Below are positions 2,132 to 63,344 of a stretch of 64,000 bases of DNA, piece by piece (position 1 is the first letter of the stretch; every line of letters starts with the position of its first letter). Source of the DNA: Salinibacterium xinjiangense. Lineage in GTDB: Bacteria > Actinomycetota > Actinomycetes > Actinomycetales > Microbacteriaceae. The DNA is taken from assembly GCF_014645015.1 (NCBI RefSeq), contig NZ_BMLC01000002.1, positions 558,001 to 622,000 on the forward strand, written 5' to 3'. The notes beneath the pieces are model-generated. The model did not search any database. It was not told the origin of the DNA and saw only the letters and a list, made by a program, of their open reading frames with translations. Made by a program: the position numbers and the translations under genes.

Positions 2132-3637
2132 ATGTCTGACTCGACGCCTCTCACTGCAGCCGAATACGATTTCGTCATCGTCTCGAACCGTTTACCCGTC
2201 GACCGTGTCACAGACTCGGACGGCGTGGCCAGCTGGACCCGATCTCCCGGGGGTCTCGTTACCGCGCTCGAACCGGTGATGCGTGACGCCGAAGGCGCCT
2301 GGGTGGGCTGGGGTGGCCAACCCGATCTCGAGATCGAGCGGTTCGAGAATGACGGCATTCACATCATCCCCGTTGCGCTCAGCGCGGTGGAGATCGAGGA
2401 GTTCTACGAGGGGTTCAGCAACGACACCCTCTGGCCGCTTTACCACGACGTGATCTCGTCTCCCGCCTACCACCGTGAGTGGTGGGAGTGTTATGTGAAG
2501 GTCAACCAGCGCTTCGCCGACGCGGCGGCGGCGGTGAGCGCCCAGGGCGCGGCCGTTTGGGTGCAGGATTACCAGCTGCAGCTCGTGCCGAAGATGCTGC
2601 GTGAGAAGAGACCAGACCTCACCATCGGCTTCTTCAACCACATTCCGTTTCCGCCATACGGTATCTACTCGCAGCTTCCCTGGCGCACCCAGATCATCGA
2701 AGGACTGCTGGGGGCCGACGTCATCGGATTCCAGCGGGTTGCGGATGCTGGCAATTTCCTCCGGGCAGTGCGCAGGCTCACCGGCTACCAGACGAAGAAT
2801 CCTGTCATCGAAGTCACCTCGAGTTCCGAGCGGCCCCGGCGGGTGGTTGCCCGGGCCTTCCCGATCTCGATCGATGCCTCCAGCTTTGAGAAACTGGCGC
2901 GACAGCCGCACATCCAGGAACGCGCGAGGAAGATCCGCGAGGGCCTCGGTAACCCGAAGACCGTCATGCTCGGTGTCGACAGGCTCGACTACACGAAAGG
3001 TATCGGCCACAGGCTGCAGGCATTCGGCGAGCTGCTGGCAGAGGGCAGGGTCGACGTGCAGGACGTCACGCTCGTGCAGGTGGCAAGCCCGAGCCGTGAG
3101 CGTGTCGCCGCATACATGCAGCTCAGGGATGAGATCGCGCTGACGGTGGGCCGCATCAACGGTGATTTCGCCACGATGAGCCACACCGCGATCAGCTACC
3201 ACCATCACGGCTATCCCCGCGATGAGATGGTGGCGCTGTACCTCGCGGCCGATGTGCTTTTGGTGACAGCCCTTCGGGACGGCATGAACCTCGTGGCCAA
3301 GGAGTACGTGGCGAGCAGGTTCGACGAAGGCGGAGTGCTCGTGCTCAGCGAGTTCACCGGCGCGTCGGACGAGCTCAAGAAGGCGCTGCTGGTCAACCCC
3401 CACGACATCGACGGGCTGAAGGACACGATTCTTCAGGCCATTGCAATGCCGGAGAAAGAGCGCAGCTCCCGGATGCGATCCCTTCGCAAGCGCGTGCTCG
3501 AGAACGATGTCGCCCGCTGGTCGAACAATTTCCTGAAGACCCTGGAGCAGGCCCGCGCCAGTCGCTACGACCGACTGGTGCCTGTGCAGCTGCCAGACGA
3601 GCTCGAGTGGACTGTAGACAAGCGGTGGACGGACTGA
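2132..3637 (+). CDS. otsA: Trehalose-6-phosphate synthase
   Basis: A GT20 retaining glycosyltransferase of 501 residues that joins UDP- or GDP-glucose and glucose-6-phosphate into trehalose-6-phosphate. Seen in order: the N-terminal [12 protein letters not shown] strand, the [11 protein letters not shown] donor loop, [15 protein letters not shown], the HIPFPP loop, DRLDYTKGI, and [12 protein letters not shown] with the glutamate that holds the nucleotide sugar. The ATG at 2132 follows a GGAAG ribosome site and gives the conserved short N-terminus ([14 protein letters not shown]). The stop codon overlaps the otsB start, so the pathway's two enzymes are translated together. The product serves osmotic and desiccation protection. 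Confidence 0.97.
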
Positions 3638-4452
3638 TGGTCGACGTCGACACCGACCCTCCGTGGTCGAAACTGCCTGAACCTCTCATCGGGGCACTCC
3701 GCGAATTGGCTCGTACCAAGCGACTGCTCGTCGCGCTCGACTTCGACGGCACCCTGGCACCGGAAGTGGACGACCCAGAGAAGGCACGCGCGCTTCCCGA
3801 GGCGAGAGCGGCCGTGCTCCGGCTTCTCGCGATGCCGTATACGAGGGTCGCGCTCGTCTCCGGCCGTGCGATGAAGAGTCTCGAGCAGGTCGCCGACCTG
3901 CCTGATTCGGCGCTGCTGGTGGGTTCGCACGGCATCGAGATCCGGCTCGATCCCGACGACGACCATTCCGCGCTCGACTCGGCCGAGCAGGCCAGGGTCG
4001 ACGTGCTGAACCTCGTGCTCGGCGAGGTGGCTGACTCGATGGATCAGGTCTGGCTCGAAGAGAAGCCTGCCGGCTTCGCCCTGCACACGAGGCTTGCCAC
4101 AGAGCACAACAGCAGGGTCGCGCACCTCGTCGCGCGATCTGAGGTCGCGGCCGAATTGTCGGGTGTCACGGTGCGCGAGGGCAAGAATGTGCTCGAGTTC
4201 TCTGTGCGCTCGACCACCAAAGGCGAGGCCGTTGAGCACCTGCGCCAGTACACCGGGGCGGACGCCGTGTTCTTCGCGGGCGACGATGTCACGGATGAAG
4301 ACGCCTTTGCCGCGCTGGGCGCAGACGACCTGGGGCTCAAGAGCGGGGAGGGATCCACTCTCGCCAACTTCCGGGTGCAGGGTCCAGAGCAGGTAGCCCG
4401 CACCCTCGCACTGCTGGCCGACCTCCGCGAAGGCGACGTGCACGAGCAGTAG
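3637..4452 (+). CDS. otsB: Trehalose-6-phosphate phosphatase
   Basis: A HAD-superfamily phosphatase of 271 residues that removes phosphate from trehalose-6-phosphate. The nucleophile motif is LDFDGTLAP (two aspartates), motif II is in VALVSGR, and the Mg2+-binding acidic motif is GDDVTDEDAF. The start is the ATG inside TGATG at 3635-3639, overlapping the otsA stop by one base, a classical translational coupling; a longer frame from 3607 is less likely. It is followed by an inverted-repeat element and then the convergent pdxH. Confidence 0.96.
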   Translation: MVDVDTDPPWSKLPEPLIGALRELARTKRLLVALDFDGTLAPEVDDPEKARALPEARAAVLRLLAMPYTRVALVSGRAMKSLEQVADLPDSALLVGSHGIEIRLDPDDDHSALDSAEQARVDVLNLVLGEVADSMDQVWLEEKPAGFALHTRLATEHNSRVAHLVARSEVAAELSGVTVREGKNVLEFSVRSTTKGEAVEHLRQYTGADAVFFAGDDVTDEDAFAALGADDLGLKSGEGSTLANFRVQGPEQVARTLALLADLREGDVHEQ

Positions 4453-4488: not shown

Positions 4489-4575
4489 TTCCGAAATGAC
4501 GGAGATCCCGGCGATGGTGGCATCCACTGCCTGGAAAATCCGGGACAGGATGCCTCGGCTTCCGTCATTTCGGAA
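4489..4575. repeat. Inverted-arm intergenic element, copy 1
   Basis: Left arm TTCCGAAATGACGGA (4489-4503) and right arm TCCGTCATTTCGGAA (4561-4575) are perfect reverse complements separated by 57 bp. Each arm is itself a near dyad (TTCCG-6-CGGAA). The element sits between the convergent ends of otsB and pdxH. The same arms occur at 16956 and 32066, while the sequence between the arms is unrelated in the three copies. Confidence 0.85.
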
Positions 4576-4601: not shown

Positions 4602-5243
4602 CTACGGCTGCAGTCGCTCGATGCCCCAGCCGCCATCAGCGGTGGGGGTGTAGCGCAGCCGATCGTGGATGCGCGACGTACGACCCTGCCAGAATTCGAT
4701 AGACCGCGGCACGACCCGCATGGCTCCCCACCACGACGGCCGTGGGACAGTATCGGTTGCAACGAACTCCCGGTCCATCTCGGCGATGCGGTGCTCCAGG
4801 GCGGCTCGCGAGCCGACCGGTTGGGATTGCTCGCTCGCGATCGACGCCAGTTGTGATTCGCGCGGCCGTGATGCCCAGAGTGCGTCGCTCGACTCCGGAG
4901 TGCCTCGCGACGCAGAGCCGAGCACGATCACCTGCCTGTGCAGCGCGTACCACGGGAACAGCAGCGAGACCGCTGGGTTGCCGTCGAGTTGAAGGCCTTT
5001 CGCCGAGCGGTAGTTGGTAACGAACTCGAAGGCCCCACCCCCGAGCCCTTTGAGTAACACCGTTCGACTCGACGGTCGGGCTTCGGCGTCGACAGTGCCG
5101 ACCACCATCGCGTTGGGTTCGTAGACCTCCGCGCGCTCCGCGGTGTCGAGCCACAGGGCAAACTGCTCGAACGGATCGGACGACACCTCGCTCTCGTCAA
5201 GCGGTGTCGATCCATAATCCGTGTGCCGTTCGAGCGAGTCCAT
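4602..5243 (-). CDS. pdxH: Pyridoxamine 5'-phosphate oxidase
   Basis: FMN enzyme of 213 residues that oxidises pyridoxine or pyridoxamine 5'-phosphate to pyridoxal 5'-phosphate with oxygen. Family segments seen: RPSSRTVLLKG (FMN binding), GNPAVSLLFPWYALHRQ, SRGTPESSDALWASRPRESQ, and the C-terminal block RPSWWGAMRVVP-IEFWQGR-RIHDRLRYT. The ATG at 5243 gives MDSLERHTDYG; further upstream codons are open but lack family similarity. It is divergent from the Mrp operon, with 125 bp between the two starts. A second, distinct PNPOx-like protein is encoded at 47118-47663. Confidence 0.95.
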   Translation of the reverse strand: MDSLERHTDYGSTPLDESEVSSDPFEQFALWLDTAERAEVYEPNAMVVGTVDAEARPSSRTVLLKGLGGGAFEFVTNYRSAKGLQLDGNPAVSLLFPWYALHRQVIVLGSASRGTPESSDALWASRPRESQLASIASEQSQPVGSRAALEHRIAEMDREFVATDTVPRPSWWGAMRVVPRSIEFWQGRTSRIHDRLRYTPTADGGWGIERLQP

Positions 5244-5281
5244 GACTCCATCCAACCGGTAGAATTGGCCTGCGGCAACGG

Positions 5282-5311
5282 TTGACTCCGATGCTCTCCA
5301 GTGCCTTACAG
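5282..5311 (+). promoter_or_regulatory. Possible promoter of the Mrp operon
   Basis: TTGACT (5282-5287) and TTACAG (5306-5311) are 18 bp apart and lie 58 bp before the mrpA start. The -35 is good and the -10 is weak, so this is only a candidate. Confidence 0.35.
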
Positions 5312-5368
5312 ATGCTGCGACGCGCATATGCCGCCGCCCTTCGATCGATCAGCGCCCTGGAAGGACAG

Positions 5369-15312: not shown

Positions 15313-16884
<1,572 letters not shown>

Positions 16885-16955: not shown

Positions 16956-17041
16956 TTCCGAAATGACGGAAGCTGCGCACTGCAGGCCACCGTTGGCGTG
17001 GCCATCGGCGCGTTTGACGCCGGATCTCCGTCATTTCGGAA
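16956..17041. repeat. Inverted-arm intergenic element, copy 2
   Basis: Left arm TTCCGAAATGACGGA (16956-16970) and right arm TCCGTCATTTCGGAA (17027-17041) are identical to those of the copy at 4489. The 56-bp interior is different. It lies between the convergent ends of ilvC and the amidohydrolase. Confidence 0.85.
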
Positions 17042-17113: not shown

Positions 17114-18478
17114 TCAGGCTGGCCAGCCGTGCTGGGCGGCGATGGCGGGTAGCTGCTCGTGCACCTTCGCCGTGGCCTCGGCCGCGAGAGGGCTCGTCGA
17201 TATGCCGTTCTCGTTGACGAGGCGGCCACCCACGTATACCTGTTTCAGGTTGCGCAGGCTCGACGACAGCACGTAGTTGTCGATCGGATGCCACAGCGGT
17301 CCCATATCGGGGGAGCGGGGGTCGACCACGACGAAGTCGGCGAACTTGCCCGGTTCGAGACTGCCCACGCGGTCGGCGATGCCGAGCACCTGCGCTGAAC
17401 CGAGGGTGTGCATCCTGAGCATGTCGGCCGGGGACATCGCGTTCGGATCGCCCGTCGCGGCGCGCTGCTGGTAGATGCCGATCCGCATGTTCTGCCAGGG
17501 ATCTGAGATGTCGGTGCAGGCCTGGTCGTCGAGGCCGACACCGATCGTCATGCCCTTCTCGCGCATCCGGGGAAGATCGGCGATGCCGGAAGCCAGGCGA
17601 CCGTTCGAGGCCGGCTGCCACGACATCCCGCTTCCCGCGGACGCAGCGCGATCGATGATCTCCGCGGTGGTCTGGATGAAGTGACCGAAGACCAGCGATG
17701 GCCCGAGTGCGTCGGCCTCCGCGTACCACTCGAACTTTGACCGTTGAAGCTCCACCTCCTCCCGGGTCTCCAGGAAGTGCGCCTGGTTGATCACGCCGAA
17801 CCGGCGCATCGCCTCCACCTCGAGCTCGGCGGCATCCCGACGGGGTGACCACTGCACGGCCCCGAACACGGCAGAGCCGAGCATCTGTGACGGATCGGCC
17901 CGGGCGTCGTGGGCGACGACGGCGGCGAAACGCTCGAAGATCTCGTCGTCACTGCCGACCGTGACATCCATTCCGACGGCATTGATGTATCGGATGCCAC
18001 TGTCGGCCTTCGCATCGGCCTGGCGCAGCACATAGTCGATGTCGCGCAGGACGCCGTTGCCGCTGCGCACGCCGTCGATCATCGGCACCCAGCTCAGGCG
18101 CGGATCGGTGAAGTCAAACGCGGTCGTCACGCCGTTGGAGAGAAAGTCGAGAGAACCGTGAAGGCTCGACCAGTAAATGTTCTCGGCGCTCGCGTTCGCG
18201 GTAAACCCCAGCATCGAGTCGCACCAGCCATACAGCGTCGCATCGACGCCGAGGCCGCGCAATCCACTCGTGAAGAGATGGCTGTGGGATGACACGAACC
18301 CGGGCGCCACGAACGAGCCGCCCACATCGAGCACCTCGGCCGCCTCGACCCGTGGCGGGGTACCGGAGCCGACAGAGTCGATGCGCCCATCGTCGGCGAC
18401 GAGCATCCACCCCTCGTCGATCACGTCGGGTCCGACAGGGGCGATAGTGATGAGCCTGGCATTGGTCACGAGCAGCAT
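17114..18478 (-). CDS. Metal-dependent amidohydrolase (chlorohydrolase/cytosine deaminase-like)
   Basis: About 454 residues of the amidohydrolase superfamily. Seen: the small beta-sandwich start (MLLVTNARLITIAP), metal motif HSHLFTSGLRG (H-x-H), NQAHFLETREE for the third histidine, FGHFIQT for the fourth, and GVGLDDQACTD for the metal aspartate. It probably deaminates or hydrolyses a heterocyclic amine; the substrate cannot be read from the sequence. The frame is open further upstream, but the ATG at 18478 starts the domain and has CAGAAT six bases before it. Divergent from a Pr6Pr membrane protein. Confidence 0.88.
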   Translation of the reverse strand: MLLVTNARLITIAPVGPDVIDEGWMLVADDGRIDSVGSGTPPRVEAAEVLDVGGSFVAPGFVSSHSHLFTSGLRGLGVDATLYGWCDSMLGFTANASAENIYWSSLHGSLDFLSNGVTTAFDFTDPRLSWVPMIDGVRSGNGVLRDIDYVLRQADAKADSGIRYINAVGMDVTVGSDDEIFERFAAVVAHDARADPSQMLGSAVFGAVQWSPRRDAAELEVEAMRRFGVINQAHFLETREEVELQRSKFEWYAEADALGPSLVFGHFIQTTAEIIDRAASAGSGMSWQPASNGRLASGIADLPRMREKGMTIGVGLDDQACTDISDPWQNMRIGIYQQRAATGDPNAMSPADMLRMHTLGSAQVLGIADRVGSLEPGKFADFVVVDPRSPDMGPLWHPIDNYVLSSSLRNLKQVYVGGRLVNENGISTSPLAAEATAKVHEQLPAIAAQHGWPA

Positions 18479-18484
18479 GACTCG

Positions 18485-18490
18485 ATTCTG
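18485..18490 (-). promoter_or_regulatory. Leaderless -10 box of the amidohydrolase
   Basis: CAGAAT on the minus strand, six bases before the ATG at 18478; no ribosome site is present. Confidence 0.4.
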
Positions 18491-18565
18491 CACCAGCCAG
18501 ATGTCGTGCGCGTTACCGGCTGTTTCCTGCATCGCGTTGCAGCGCACGACAGGCGGGTGACCCGG

Positions 18566-30524: not shown

Positions 30525-31311
30525 GCGGCAGGGCTTCCTGTCGCCTGCCCTGTGGGTTCCCGCGGGGCTCGCACTGGCATTGCTGGGGCTGCCATTGGTC
30601 GCCCTGGTCGTCCGGGCTCCCTGGTCGCAGTTGCCCGAACTTCTCGCCCAGCCGAGCGTCGGTTCGGCTCTCGCACTGTCGCTCGCCACGGGCCTGATGT
30701 CGACGGCCATCTCGTTGGTGCTGGGCATTCCGCTCGCCCTCGTGCTCGCCAGGTCGGCACAGTGGGCCGCCGTGCCGCGACGACTCCTCCGTGCGCTCGT
30801 CACAGTGCCGCTCGTGCTGCCTCCCGTGGTCGGCGGTGTCGCACTGTTGTTGTTGCTGGGCCGCAGGGGGTTACTCGGGCAGTTCCTTCCGTTCCAGCTT
30901 CCGTTCACGACGGCGGCTGTGGTCATCGCGCAGGTCTTCGTCGCGATGCCTTTCCTCGTGCTCGCCGTCGAGGGTGCCCTTCGAGCTTCCGATCGACGGT
31001 TCGAGACGGCAGCAGCCACCCTCGGGGCGTCGAGGTTCACGATCTTCCGTCGCATCACACTGCCGCTCGTGTTTCCCGGAGTCGCCGCCGGTGCGCTGCT
31101 GTGCTTCTGCCGCGCGCTGGGCGAGTTCGGTGCCACGATCACCTTCGCCGGCAGCTTCCCCGGTGTCACCCAGACCCTGCCGATCGCGACCTACCTGCAG
31201 TTGCAGACGGATCCGGATGCCGCCATCGCCCTCTCGCTCGTACTGATGATCATCTCTGCCGCCGCCCTTGTCAGCCTGCGCGACCGCTGGGTGCCGGGGG
31301 TAACGGCATGA
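30502..31311 (+). CDS. modB: Molybdate ABC transporter permease
   Basis: About 269 residues with five to six helices and the ABC coupling loop ETAAATLGASRFTIFRRITLP. It forms the membrane channel for molybdate. The start is uncertain: GTG at 30502 is used here, but TTG at 30496 has a better-spaced GGAAAG site. Either start lies within the end of modA, so the genes are translationally coupled. Confidence 0.93.
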   Translation: MQRSARRKRQGFLSPALWVPAGLALALLGLPLVALVVRAPWSQLPELLAQPSVGSALALSLATGLMSTAISLVLGIPLALVLARSAQWAAVPRRLLRALVTVPLVLPPVVGGVALLLLLGRRGLLGQFLPFQLPFTTAAVVIAQVFVAMPFLVLAVEGALRASDRRFETAAATLGASRFTIFRRITLPLVFPGVAAGALLCFCRALGEFGATITFAGSFPGVTQTLPIATYLQLQTDPDAAIALSLVLMIISAAALVSLRDRWVPGVTA

Positions 31312-32030
31312 GCGTTGCGGCCCGGCTCAGGCTCGCGCGTGGAGCCTTCACCCTCGACCTGGAGCTCGTGGTCACCGTTGGCCGCACGCTCGCCCTGCTC
31401 GGACCGAATGGCGCGGGAAAGTCGACGGCATTGGGCATGCTCGCGGGCATGATCGACCTCGATTCCGGTTCGATCGTCGTGGGCGGCCGTGTGCTCGACG
31501 ACGACTCGACGCATGTCGAGACCGAGCATCGTCGCGTCGGGGTGATGTTCCAGGATTACCTGCTCTTCCCGCACCTGAGCGTGCTGGAGAACGTCGCCTT
31601 CGGCGCGCGCTCCACCGGAGTGCCGCGGGCCGCGGCGCGTGGTGCAGCGCTCGAATGGCTCGACCGGCTCGGTATCGCCGACCTTGCCTCGAGCCGCCCA
31701 CCACAGCTCTCCGGTGGGCAGGCCCAGCGTGTCGCACTCGGCAGGGCGCTCGCCAGCGATCCTAAACTGCTGCTGCTCGACGAGCCTCTGGCGGCCCTCG
31801 ACGTCGAGATCCGCGAGGAGGTGCGCGCAGAGCTCGGCCGGCACATCCGGGAGTGGGGCGGACCGACGATTCTCGTCACACATCTCTTCGATGATGTGGT
31901 CGCCCTCGCAGACGATGTGGTCGTCATCGAGCGCGGGCGCGTCACGCAGCGCGCCACGGTTCGTGAGCTCGTGCAGGCGCCGGCGACTTCCTACGTCTCG
32001 CGACTCGTCGCCAGCTGGTCAGACGACTGA
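31308..32030 (+). CDS. modC: Molybdate ABC transporter ATPase, short form without Mop domain
   Basis: A 240-residue ATPase. Walker A GPNGAGKST, Q-loop FQDYLLFPHL, signature LSGGQAQRVALGRAL, Walker B LLLLDEPLAALD, H-loop LVTHLF. Full-length ModC has about 350 residues with a C-terminal TOBE/Mop regulatory domain; this one stops after the ATPase. The ATG overlaps the modB stop (ATGA). An inverted-arm element follows the gene. Confidence 0.95.
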   Translation: MSVAARLRLARGAFTLDLELVVTVGRTLALLGPNGAGKSTALGMLAGMIDLDSGSIVVGGRVLDDDSTHVETEHRRVGVMFQDYLLFPHLSVLENVAFGARSTGVPRAAARGAALEWLDRLGIADLASSRPPQLSGGQAQRVALGRALASDPKLLLLDEPLAALDVEIREEVRAELGRHIREWGGPTILVTHLFDDVVALADDVVVIERGRVTQRATVRELVQAPATSYVSRLVASWSDD

Positions 32031-32065: not shown

Positions 32066-32173
32066 TTCCGAAATGACGGAGTTCTCGTTCCGAGATGACG
32101 GGACGGGCAGGGTTTGCCGCGTGATAGTGCGTTCAGTGAACGGGCAGGATGCCGCAACTCCGTCATTTCGGAA
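32066..32173. repeat. Inverted-arm intergenic element, copy 3 (with extra internal arm)
   Basis: Left arm TTCCGAAATGACGGA (32066-32080), right arm TCCGTCATTTCGGAA (32159-32173), 78 bp apart. A further near copy of the left arm, TTCCGAGATGACGGGA, lies inside at 32088-32103, as if the arm had been duplicated. It lies between the convergent ends of modC and the DUF1275 gene. Confidence 0.85.
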
Positions 32174-32239: not shown

Positions 32240-32938
32240 TTACTCGGCGGGGGTGCCGGTGGCGTGTGGTCGCCCGAGATGGCCGACGAGCGTGGTCAGC
32301 AGGGTGATGCCGGCGGCCACGAGGATTCCGGCAGGGAGGGAAATCTGCAACAGGAGCGCGCCGACCGCGGCTCCGGCGCCGATCAGGGCGATCGCGAGCA
32401 CGCGGCGCGGCCACGGGTGACCCTTGCTCCTGGCGGCGAACACCGAGTCGTAGGCCAGCCCGACGATTGTCGAGGTGACGACGACGGTGGTGACATCCTT
32501 CACACCGATATGCCTGGCGGCACCGGCCTGCATCCCCATCGCGAGACCGAGGGCTCCGGTGACGGCGAGCTTGACGGGTTCGATCGGGTCGGCGATCACG
32601 AGCATGGGCACCGCGGCGGCGGCGAGCACGAGCCCGACGATCGCAAACAGCACGGTGGAGCGGCCCGACCAGCCGCCGGCGACAGGCCTGAGGGTCCTGC
32701 CCGAGACCGCAGCGCCGAGCATGAACAGCACGAGTGCGATGATCGGGCCGATGATCGGCAAACCGTCTGCTCCGGTCAGCGCCATCCCGAGAATCACGAC
32801 GTTGCCGGTCATGTTGCCGGTGAAGACGCGGTCGAGGCCGAGGTACCCGACAGCGTCAATCACACCGGTCGAGAAGGTGAGCGCGAGCATGAGCGAGAGG
32901 TGCAGGCGGTCAGGATTGCGGCGCAGCGTGTCGATCAC
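32240..32938 (-). CDS. DUF1275 (YoaK-type) membrane protein
   Basis: A 232-residue membrane protein with about six helices. Family marks are TFSTGVIDAVGYLGLDRVFTGNMTGN (positions 18-43 of the chain, overlapping the first helices), GLAMGMQAGAARH and TTVVVTSTIVGLA. Function in the family is not established. The GTG at 32938 follows a GGGAGA ribosome site; the frame is open to 33001. It is divergent from the acetamidase gene, with a perfect dyad between them. Confidence 0.88.
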   Translation of the reverse strand: MIDTLRRNPDRLHLSLMLALTFSTGVIDAVGYLGLDRVFTGNMTGNVVILGMALTGADGLPIIGPIIALVLFMLGAAVSGRTLRPVAGGWSGRSTVLFAIVGLVLAAAAVPMLVIADPIEPVKLAVTGALGLAMGMQAGAARHIGVKDVTTVVVTSTIVGLAYDSVFAARSKGHPWPRRVLAIALIGAGAAVGALLLQISLPAGILVAAGITLLTTLVGHLGRPHATGTPAE

Positions 32939-32986
32939 GGTTTCTCCCTGGGGTGTGCGCGACCCCCGGCCGCTGGCTTCAGTCGC

Positions 32987-33003
32987 TAGTGTTCTAGACA
33001 CTA
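32987..33003. promoter_or_regulatory. Perfect dyad operator candidate
   Basis: TAGTGT-5-ACACTA around a TCTAG core, placed between the divergent DUF1275 and acetamidase genes and just before the latter's start region. The AT-rich dyad stands out from its GC-rich surroundings and is a good repressor-site candidate; no regulator gene is next to it. Confidence 0.6.
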
Positions 33004-63264: not shown

Positions 63265-63344
63265 GGAAATTCAGGAAGCCAGCACGGAATCCGCCGTGAC
63301 ACATCGCCCGAGTACCTGTCATCGCCGGGCGTTCCTGAATTTCC
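63265..63344. repeat. Inverted-arm element, divergent relative
   Basis: GGAAATTCAGGAA (63265-63277) and TTCCTGAATTTCC (63332-63344) are perfect reverse complements 54 bp apart. Size and layout match the three TTCCGAAATGACGGA elements, but arm sequence differs and the element lies between divergent genes. Confidence 0.75.

Follow-up and report, generated by a model that had tools for sequence, protein, structure and literature searches.

Among the closest described counterparts of the elements reported here are the REPIN-RAYT pairs of short element and enzyme and the AbiE type IV toxin-antitoxin. In the portion of PMC3116915 drawn on here, the first residues of the two ends of GI REPINs are placed 71 bp apart, and compensatory changes in REPIN spacers are called common. 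The excerpt of PMC8049555 gives 69-235 REPINs for each E. coli genome and describes the RAYT genes as single-copy and vertically inherited. AbiEi, according to the section of PMC7319586 used, binds two 23-bp inverted repeats and bends the DNA, the repeats of the AbiE operator being 3 or 13 bp apart. Based on the collective evidence of the current study, we put at roughly 60% the probability that the inverted-arm elements of Salinibacterium, a genus of the Microbacteriaceae by taxonomy, are sites of nucleases whose genes they bracket and by which they are copied, in a way of working like that of REPIN-RAYT with an unrelated enzyme. The nuclease carries DUF559, listed in Pfam as a domain of unknown function.

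The window, that is, the whole stretch of 64,000 nucleotides analysed, is part of the 3.02-Mb genome of S. xinjiangense (G000). Element 1 (4489..4575, 87 bp; arms 4489-4503 on the plus and 4561-4575 on the minus strand) has on its left an otsB-like trehalose-phosphatase gene (3625..4452, +) and on its right a pdxH-like PNPOx gene (4602..5327, -). Element 2 (16956..17041, 86 bp; arms 16956-16970 and 17027-17041) is placed between ilvC, encoding ketol-acid reductoisomerase (KARI; 15856..16884, +), and an amidohydrolase gene (17114..18532, -). Element 3 (32066..32173; arms 32066-32080 and 32159-32173), a long form of 108 bp with an additional arm of two mismatches at 32088-32102, separates the gene of an ABC transporter ATPase, formerly read as modC (31308..32030, +), from that of a DUF1275 protein (32240..33001, -). 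The sequence-only reading had described exact 15-bp inverted arms, interiors of 57, 56 and 78 bp and the genes on either side; the arms, TTCCGAAATGACGGA and its reverse complement, are indeed exact at all these coordinates, the interior lengths are right for elements of 87, 86 and 108 bp, and Pfam confirms the gene pairs as trehalose-phosphatase/PNPOx, KARI/amidohydrolase and ABC ATPase/DUF1275. Arm matches at up to two mismatches number 7 in the window (6 exact), against 0.11 expected on average from 100 shuffles. The TTCCG-N6-CGGA dyad noticed earlier within the arm is present in the TTCCGAAATGACGGA family and absent from other arm families of the same geometry. One such second-family element, of 80 bp and with the arm GGAAATTCAGGAA, is located at 63265..63344; its arm core is also the core of the arms bracketing a DUF559 paralog at G000:C1:356253 (L202).

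A genome-wide search for the 15-mer, proposed earlier as a check, showed it not to be rare and to be enriched in convergent gaps: G000 has 37 exact and 3 one-mismatch arms of the TTCCGAAATGACGGA family, the reversed-sequence control giving 0, and these form 19 inverted pairs, with one complex copy having two extra arms. The exact pair was found in 7 of the 27 genomes of the genus, and a looser pattern adds G004, with arms altered at the ninth base, for 8 carriers of 27. Most arms of G004, in which the cognate gene is a 50-residue remnant, are jointly changed from T to C at the ninth base, and one pair carries A at this base of both arms. Among 299 evenly drawn genomes of the family, 2 contain the exact pair, namely G000 itself and G242 from a different genus. 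Scanning of a species-representative genome collection gave 28 stretches, possibly without the window's own genome, titled Salinibacterium, Rhodoglobus or just actinobacterial MAGs. The family has no copy in G017, which neighbours G000 and Salinibacterium sp. G-O1 (G023) on the smc tree.

Gene orientation, taken from approximate gene calls of our own, places 23 of 51 elements from seven genomes between convergent genes, 19 between tandem and 6 between divergent genes, with 3 overlapping an ORF; in G000 the convergent share is 11 of 19. The enrichment relative to the gaps of the window (10 of 64 convergent) is significant at p=3e-4 (Fisher, the 3 ORF cases omitted). The position exactly between convergent genes claimed for the window copies is thus true of all three gaps there, but elsewhere it is a bias only. 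Some copies lie within coding sequence. The variable smc linker directly before the C-terminal head harbours in-frame elements in five species (L196 9680-9766; L195 10207-10301; L188 10111-10197; L194 9097-9173; L200 9797-9877), or 5 of the 14 genomes read, derived from four arm families in a count that omits weaker 9-11-bp repeats in other linkers. G022 has an element within the linker of an hrpA-like helicase. Apparent pieces of another palindromic repeat, GGTTTCGATACGCC...GGCTACTCAACC, were seen by eye in the smc linkers of L192 and L189, in the hrpA linker of L351 and in L265 (G017); this repeat seems to occur in linkers of G017 and G020 and was also seen after MGMT in G017.

Elements for anatomical analysis (51 from seven genomes) were fetched around exact pairs, so that their arm perfection is partly by construction; the fairer counts come from the genome-wide arm searches at up to one mismatch. 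Lengths cluster at 86-88, 98 and 108 bp, with 1 element of 85 bp, 25 of 86, 16 of 87, 4 of 88, 3 of 98, 1 of 108 and 1 degenerate element of 70 bp. The half-site consensus of this set, with the same proviso on arm perfection, is C-TTCCGAAATGACGGA-GAT; the 3' flank starts with G or GG, the flank consensus is CC/GG, and no T-run is found. Opposite positions of the left and right interior agree no more often than shuffled ones do (28 positions, 51 elements; smallest p 0.053), hence the interior is not a conserved hairpin. An extension of the stem (GATTCGGGC/GCCCGAATC) was considered and rejected, as it reflects the shared half-site consensus and not covariation. The motif GGCATCC/GGATGCC recurs in many interiors and in nearby intergenic DNA. 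In the 41 elements of 86-87 bp, the A/T content of the interior oscillates with a period of about 10.5 bp; the wave is mirror-symmetrical and phased with the arms. None of 2000 permutations reaches the power observed at 10.5 bp, whether or not the first four interior bases are counted, the period being coarsely resolved (roughly 9.5-11.5) given its computation over 24-28 bases. The periodicity is significant in each of five genomes separately (p 5e-4 to 0.02) and absent from two flank windows in the same test (p 0.63 and 0.67). Phased A/T together with clustered lengths suggests protein-bent or wrapped double-stranded DNA. Captured spacers of fixed length were discarded as an account of the interior because of the phased A/T and because some interiors are related.

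This anatomy bears directly on a function in RNA, whether as bidirectional terminators, one of the candidates put forward at the outset, or as stabilisers of 3' ends. The arms are able to pair, folding energies of the three window copies are -46 to -55 kcal/mol, and the convergent bias would fit. Yet it is the sequence of the arms that is conserved, the interiors show no covariation of pairs, the T-run is absent, over half of the copies read are outside convergent gaps, including tandem, divergent and intragenic ones, and the ~10.5-bp periodicity is DNA-like. Terminators are therefore disfavoured, and RNA hairpins of either kind are considered very improbable.

The reading of the elements as nuclease sites derives from a gene found between two of them. 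In G000, G021, G022 and G020, two TTCCGAAATGACGGA-family elements about 1 kb apart bracket one and the same gene (one element is degenerate in G020), and in G018 the gene has one intact and one degenerate element. The only exact pair of G242, a member of another genus, brackets this gene together with a degenerate pair, again beside an MGMT-like gene. The product of ~284 amino acids contains the DUF559 domain (E 2e-11). Its N-terminal part is weakly AbiEi-like (PADLOC AbiEi, E 6e-5, residues 7-59); the PADLOC matches, to homing-endonuclease and AbiEi models, are weak. As a sign of the AbiEi wHTH domain, the Pfam model AbiEi_4 stays under its cut-off for the query and for 4 of the 5 other proteins compared and is missing from the fifth. 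PDB entries 3hrl and 3r3p, the latter a mobile intron protein which we take to be I-Bth0305I, match the nuclease part (E 9e-5 and 3e-4). EDxHD is a motif of the homing endonucleases. Residues E187, D214, E224 and D240 of the putative active site occur in 60 of 60 proteins, Q204 in 59 and H231 in 58 of these. Relatives were absent from viral contigs and, at E 1e-15, from plasmids, with one weak phage record.

Members of the close subfamily (at least 56% identity) are present in 5 of the 8 carriers, and the 50-residue remnant is in a sixth (G004); in the 19 non-carrier genomes of the genus there are none, the best match being 46%. The two carriers without the close gene are G023 and G025. G023 has no relative of at least 50% identity, and its best match, at 45%, is bracketed by different arms. 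The MGMT locus is empty in G023, carries an apparently decayed solo element in G025, and in G004 has a decayed element along with the remnant. Exact and one-mismatch arms in the gene-bearing genomes are 17+2 (G022), 17+4 (G020), 7+1 (G021) and 3+0 (G018). In G025 the arms are decaying (5 exact, 4 with one mismatch). In G023, despite the missing close gene, 26 of 26 arms found at up to one mismatch are exact. Perfect arms without the close gene count against the simplest version of the element/enzyme story; they could reflect recent gene loss, cross-recognition by the 45%-identical paralog, or a host function.

Arms could also stay perfect through addiction or defence, if the nuclease spared DNA bound at two arms but cut single arms or foreign DNA, such that arm mutations were harmful. 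The invariant active-site residues, the weak PADLOC matches to models of homing endonucleases and of AbiEi and the lack of isolated arms in G000 and G023 at up to one mismatch would be expected from it. Single or mismatched arms are, however, present in G020, G022 and G025, the arms of G023 persist without the close gene, and none of the neighbours at the MGMT locus is a defence gene. According to Pfam, these neighbours are methylguanine methyltransferase-like and either of the 3-dmu-9_3-mt family (G021) or an ABC transporter (G000), with neither an AbiEii-like nucleotidyltransferase toxin nor a defence gene among them. We hold addiction or defence to be improbable.

Bracketing extends to other DUF559 paralogs, which are flanked by inverted-arm elements whose arms differ between paralogs and are alike on both sides of a gene. 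From 60 loci, 2 were excluded for short flanks (L167, L230), and the tested set comprised 58 genes from 30 genera, 29 of them loci of the genus and 29 from as many other genera. Elements were found on both sides of 34 genes (20 in the genus, 14 in other genera), on at least one side of 49, and by the chosen criterion at none for 9. Control windows scored 3 of 174; for 272 control genes, both sides scored 1 and the single sides 14 and 19, counting solo elements. In 38 of the 58 genes the arms before and after the gene have a common core of at least 7 bp, and the more alike two proteins are, the more alike are their arms (r=0.675, n=38, p=5e-4), mostly above 40% identity. Restricted to the 20 proteins below 50% identity, the correlation drops to r=0.24 (p=0.015); in that subset it is not significant when only the N-terminal 60 residues (r=-0.04, p=0.63) or only the nuclease part (r=0.10, p=0.21) is compared. 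Interiors of the two flanking elements are alike beyond 50 shuffles, in either orientation, for 8 of the 34 both-sided genes.

A precedent for a purely regulatory role is AbiEi, which autoregulates by bending DNA at inverted repeats, as described in the section of PMC7319586 used. By analogy, the nuclease gene might be autoregulated through its 5' element, which precedes the beginning of the protein match by a median of 114 bp (measured relative to the gene), and the dispersed copies would be a regulon. But a 3' element is about as frequent (the two sides, assigned along the contig, have elements at 43 and 40 of 58 genes), and the dispersed copies include the 23 of 51 between convergent genes and those inside the coding sequences of smc and the hrpA-like helicase. 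An operator alone is thus given little credence.

Other arm families are dispersed, too. Pairs of AAATNNAGGA...TCCTNNATTT occur in 16 of the 27 genus genomes and total 127 (36 in G023, 19 in G000, 17 each in G003 and G018, 15 in G022), with 0 in the reversed control. The 62 read (all 17 of G003, all 17 of G018, all 15 of G022, all 5 of G010, 3 of 4 in G017, 5 of 36 in G023 and none of the 19 in G000) show the same geometry at 74-78 bp, two being of 87 bp, and the 60 elements of 74-78 bp exhibit a 10-10.5-bp A/T wave as well, which provides an independent replicate. A DUF559-type match at E<=0.001 was found in 64 of 90 family genomes sampled. The phylum-wide sample consists mostly of matches to the nuclease domain, L234 being the one locus tested there for flanking elements.

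G000 and G023 have elements at nine common places. Both neighbours are matched at six, namely otsB/pdxH (L075 in G023, corresponding to element 1), ilvC/amidohydrolase (L074, element 2), ABC ATPase/DUF1275 (L073, of 88 bp, element 3), smc, L034/L079 and L083/L069, and one neighbour at three (L032/L078, L089/L076, L090/L077), accepting only matches of >35% identity and E 1e-8, with smc named by Pfam. The arms are retained at all nine, with a single mismatch, in L090 of G000. Interiors at these places are 44-70% identical, compared to 47 +/- 7% for random pairs. On a lenient aligner, the intergenic flanks of seven common gaps range from the shuffled level to ~12 points above it and the interiors to 10 points above. 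Because the arms are retained where interiors and flanks are near background, they must have outlived near-saturating neutral change.

Some elements were copied as units. L298 and L299 of G022, on different contigs, are alike in 48 of 57 interior bases; L075 and L076 of G023 are on different contigs in opposite orientation; L322 and L323 of G003 are 1.9 kb apart. In each case the flanks are at chance. The interiors of L296 and L299 are likewise related, but one flank is slightly above the chance maximum. Whole elements including flanks are locally duplicated in tandem in G023 (L079 1986-2222; L348 301-536). Only few of 6328 element pairs share interiors, implying that copying happened long ago or happens seldom. 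The linkers were too variable for an empty-site junction or a target duplication to be resolved.

Retention of arms at the nine places despite interiors that have diverged almost to the background level, the perfect arms of G023 without the close gene, the convergent bias and the A/T periodicity would all suit sites for host chromosome organisation or gene insulation, bound by a DNA-bending protein, perhaps a domesticated DUF559 paralog or another protein, and kept by selection for the host function. A chromosome-organising protein was among the original candidates, and the periodicity does fit a DNA-bending complex. Set against this, the arms vary between paralogs and species, entire families are gained or lost from one close relative to the next (as in G017), unit copies exist and the nuclease residues are conserved. 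We consider host sites unlikely. The original suggestion of a REP-like family mobilised in trans fares better: the copies are dispersed, mostly extragenic and in some cases copied as units, and a candidate cognate gene is situated between two of them. This bracketed gene, however, encodes the DUF559/EDxHD-like nuclease and not the Y1 RAYT that had been anticipated.

In the preferred reading of nuclease sites, the element is understood as the DNA site of a protein composed of the weakly AbiEi-like N-terminal part and the C-terminal DUF559/EDxHD-like domain, presumably active as a nuclease. Each ~20-bp arm would be occupied by one protein unit, and the 56-57 bp between the arms would be bent or wrapped in helical phase. 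A protein unit on each arm, with the interior bent in phase, could account for the retention of arms, spacing and periodic A/T alone, with some presumed benefit. Recognition of the arms by the N-terminal part is plausible by analogy, considering that AbiEi is reported to bend DNA at inverted repeats in the portion of its description drawn on. The nuclease might occasionally place copies of whole elements at new positions, for the most part outside genes; its own gene would be stationary and vertically inherited. Element and enzyme would thus make a pair like REPIN and RAYT, but the enzyme would be unrelated and the DNA double-stranded and phased. There appears to be an even chance that the Microbacteriaceae harbour another class of long-lived replicator within genomes, evolved independently, in which a stationary EDxHD-type nuclease gene is bracketed by, and serves, families of ~86-bp elements of bent double-stranded DNA, with paralogs that switched arm specificity often and an end spacing of ~71 bp at which GI REPINs arrived separately.

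Lastly, our study has importance for DUF559 proteins, which are common in the Microbacteriaceae and for which a candidate substrate can be read from the DNA beside each gene; paralogs with different arms offer a natural set for reading the DNA-recognition code. If true, the proposal adds to RAYT another, unrelated case of an enzyme that does not itself jump and that coexists lastingly with a population of short elements, and the question why bacteria keep such populations becomes testable on independent ground. Among the literature matches listed, judged by title and start of abstract, DUF559 is not tied to inverted-repeat elements; this does not show that such a link is unpublished.

Compared with known systems, the elements share with MITEs that they are short, non-coding and dispersed and have inverted ends, but their interiors are mostly unrelated, no transposon with the same ends was met and no target duplication was resolved. 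From intrinsic terminators they differ in lacking a T-run after a GC stem and in lying for more than half outside convergent gaps. By sequence, the nuclease domain is similar to that of the EDxHD homing endonuclease 3r3p, with acidic and histidine residues conserved; here, however, the gene is free-standing, has the weakly AbiEi-like N-terminal part and is bracketed by inverted-arm elements that are also dispersed. With AbiE, there is the weak N-terminal similarity to the antitoxin AbiEi, which, as far as its partial account goes, also binds two inverted repeats and bends DNA, whereas the C-terminus here is a putative nuclease, an AbiEii-like neighbour is lacking at the MGMT locus, and the repeats, separated by 3 or 13 bp in the AbiE operators excerpted, are 56-57 bp apart here and occur in dispersed copies as well. 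The likeness to REPIN-RAYT goes further. Both have a pair of conserved inverted ends that a less conserved spacer keeps at a fixed distance (here mostly 71-73 bp, lower coordinate to lower coordinate, versus 71 bp in the part of the REPIN source used), elements that adjoin the enzyme gene and are mostly extragenic, several element/enzyme families per genome and unit copying within a genome, which was seen here in few pairs (L298/L299, L075/L076). The differences are a DUF559/EDxHD-like nuclease in place of an HUH/Y1 transposase, an enzyme gene bracketed on both sides, A/T phasing instead of the spacer pairing and compensatory changes described in the REPIN excerpt, and 19 copies in G000 versus the 69-235 per E. 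coli genome quoted from the other. The evidence points to elements and nuclease as an undescribed kind of long-lived genomic passenger with its own enzyme, no known family that we came across supplying both parts; ranked by its way of working, it could be a variant within the REPIN-RAYT kind.
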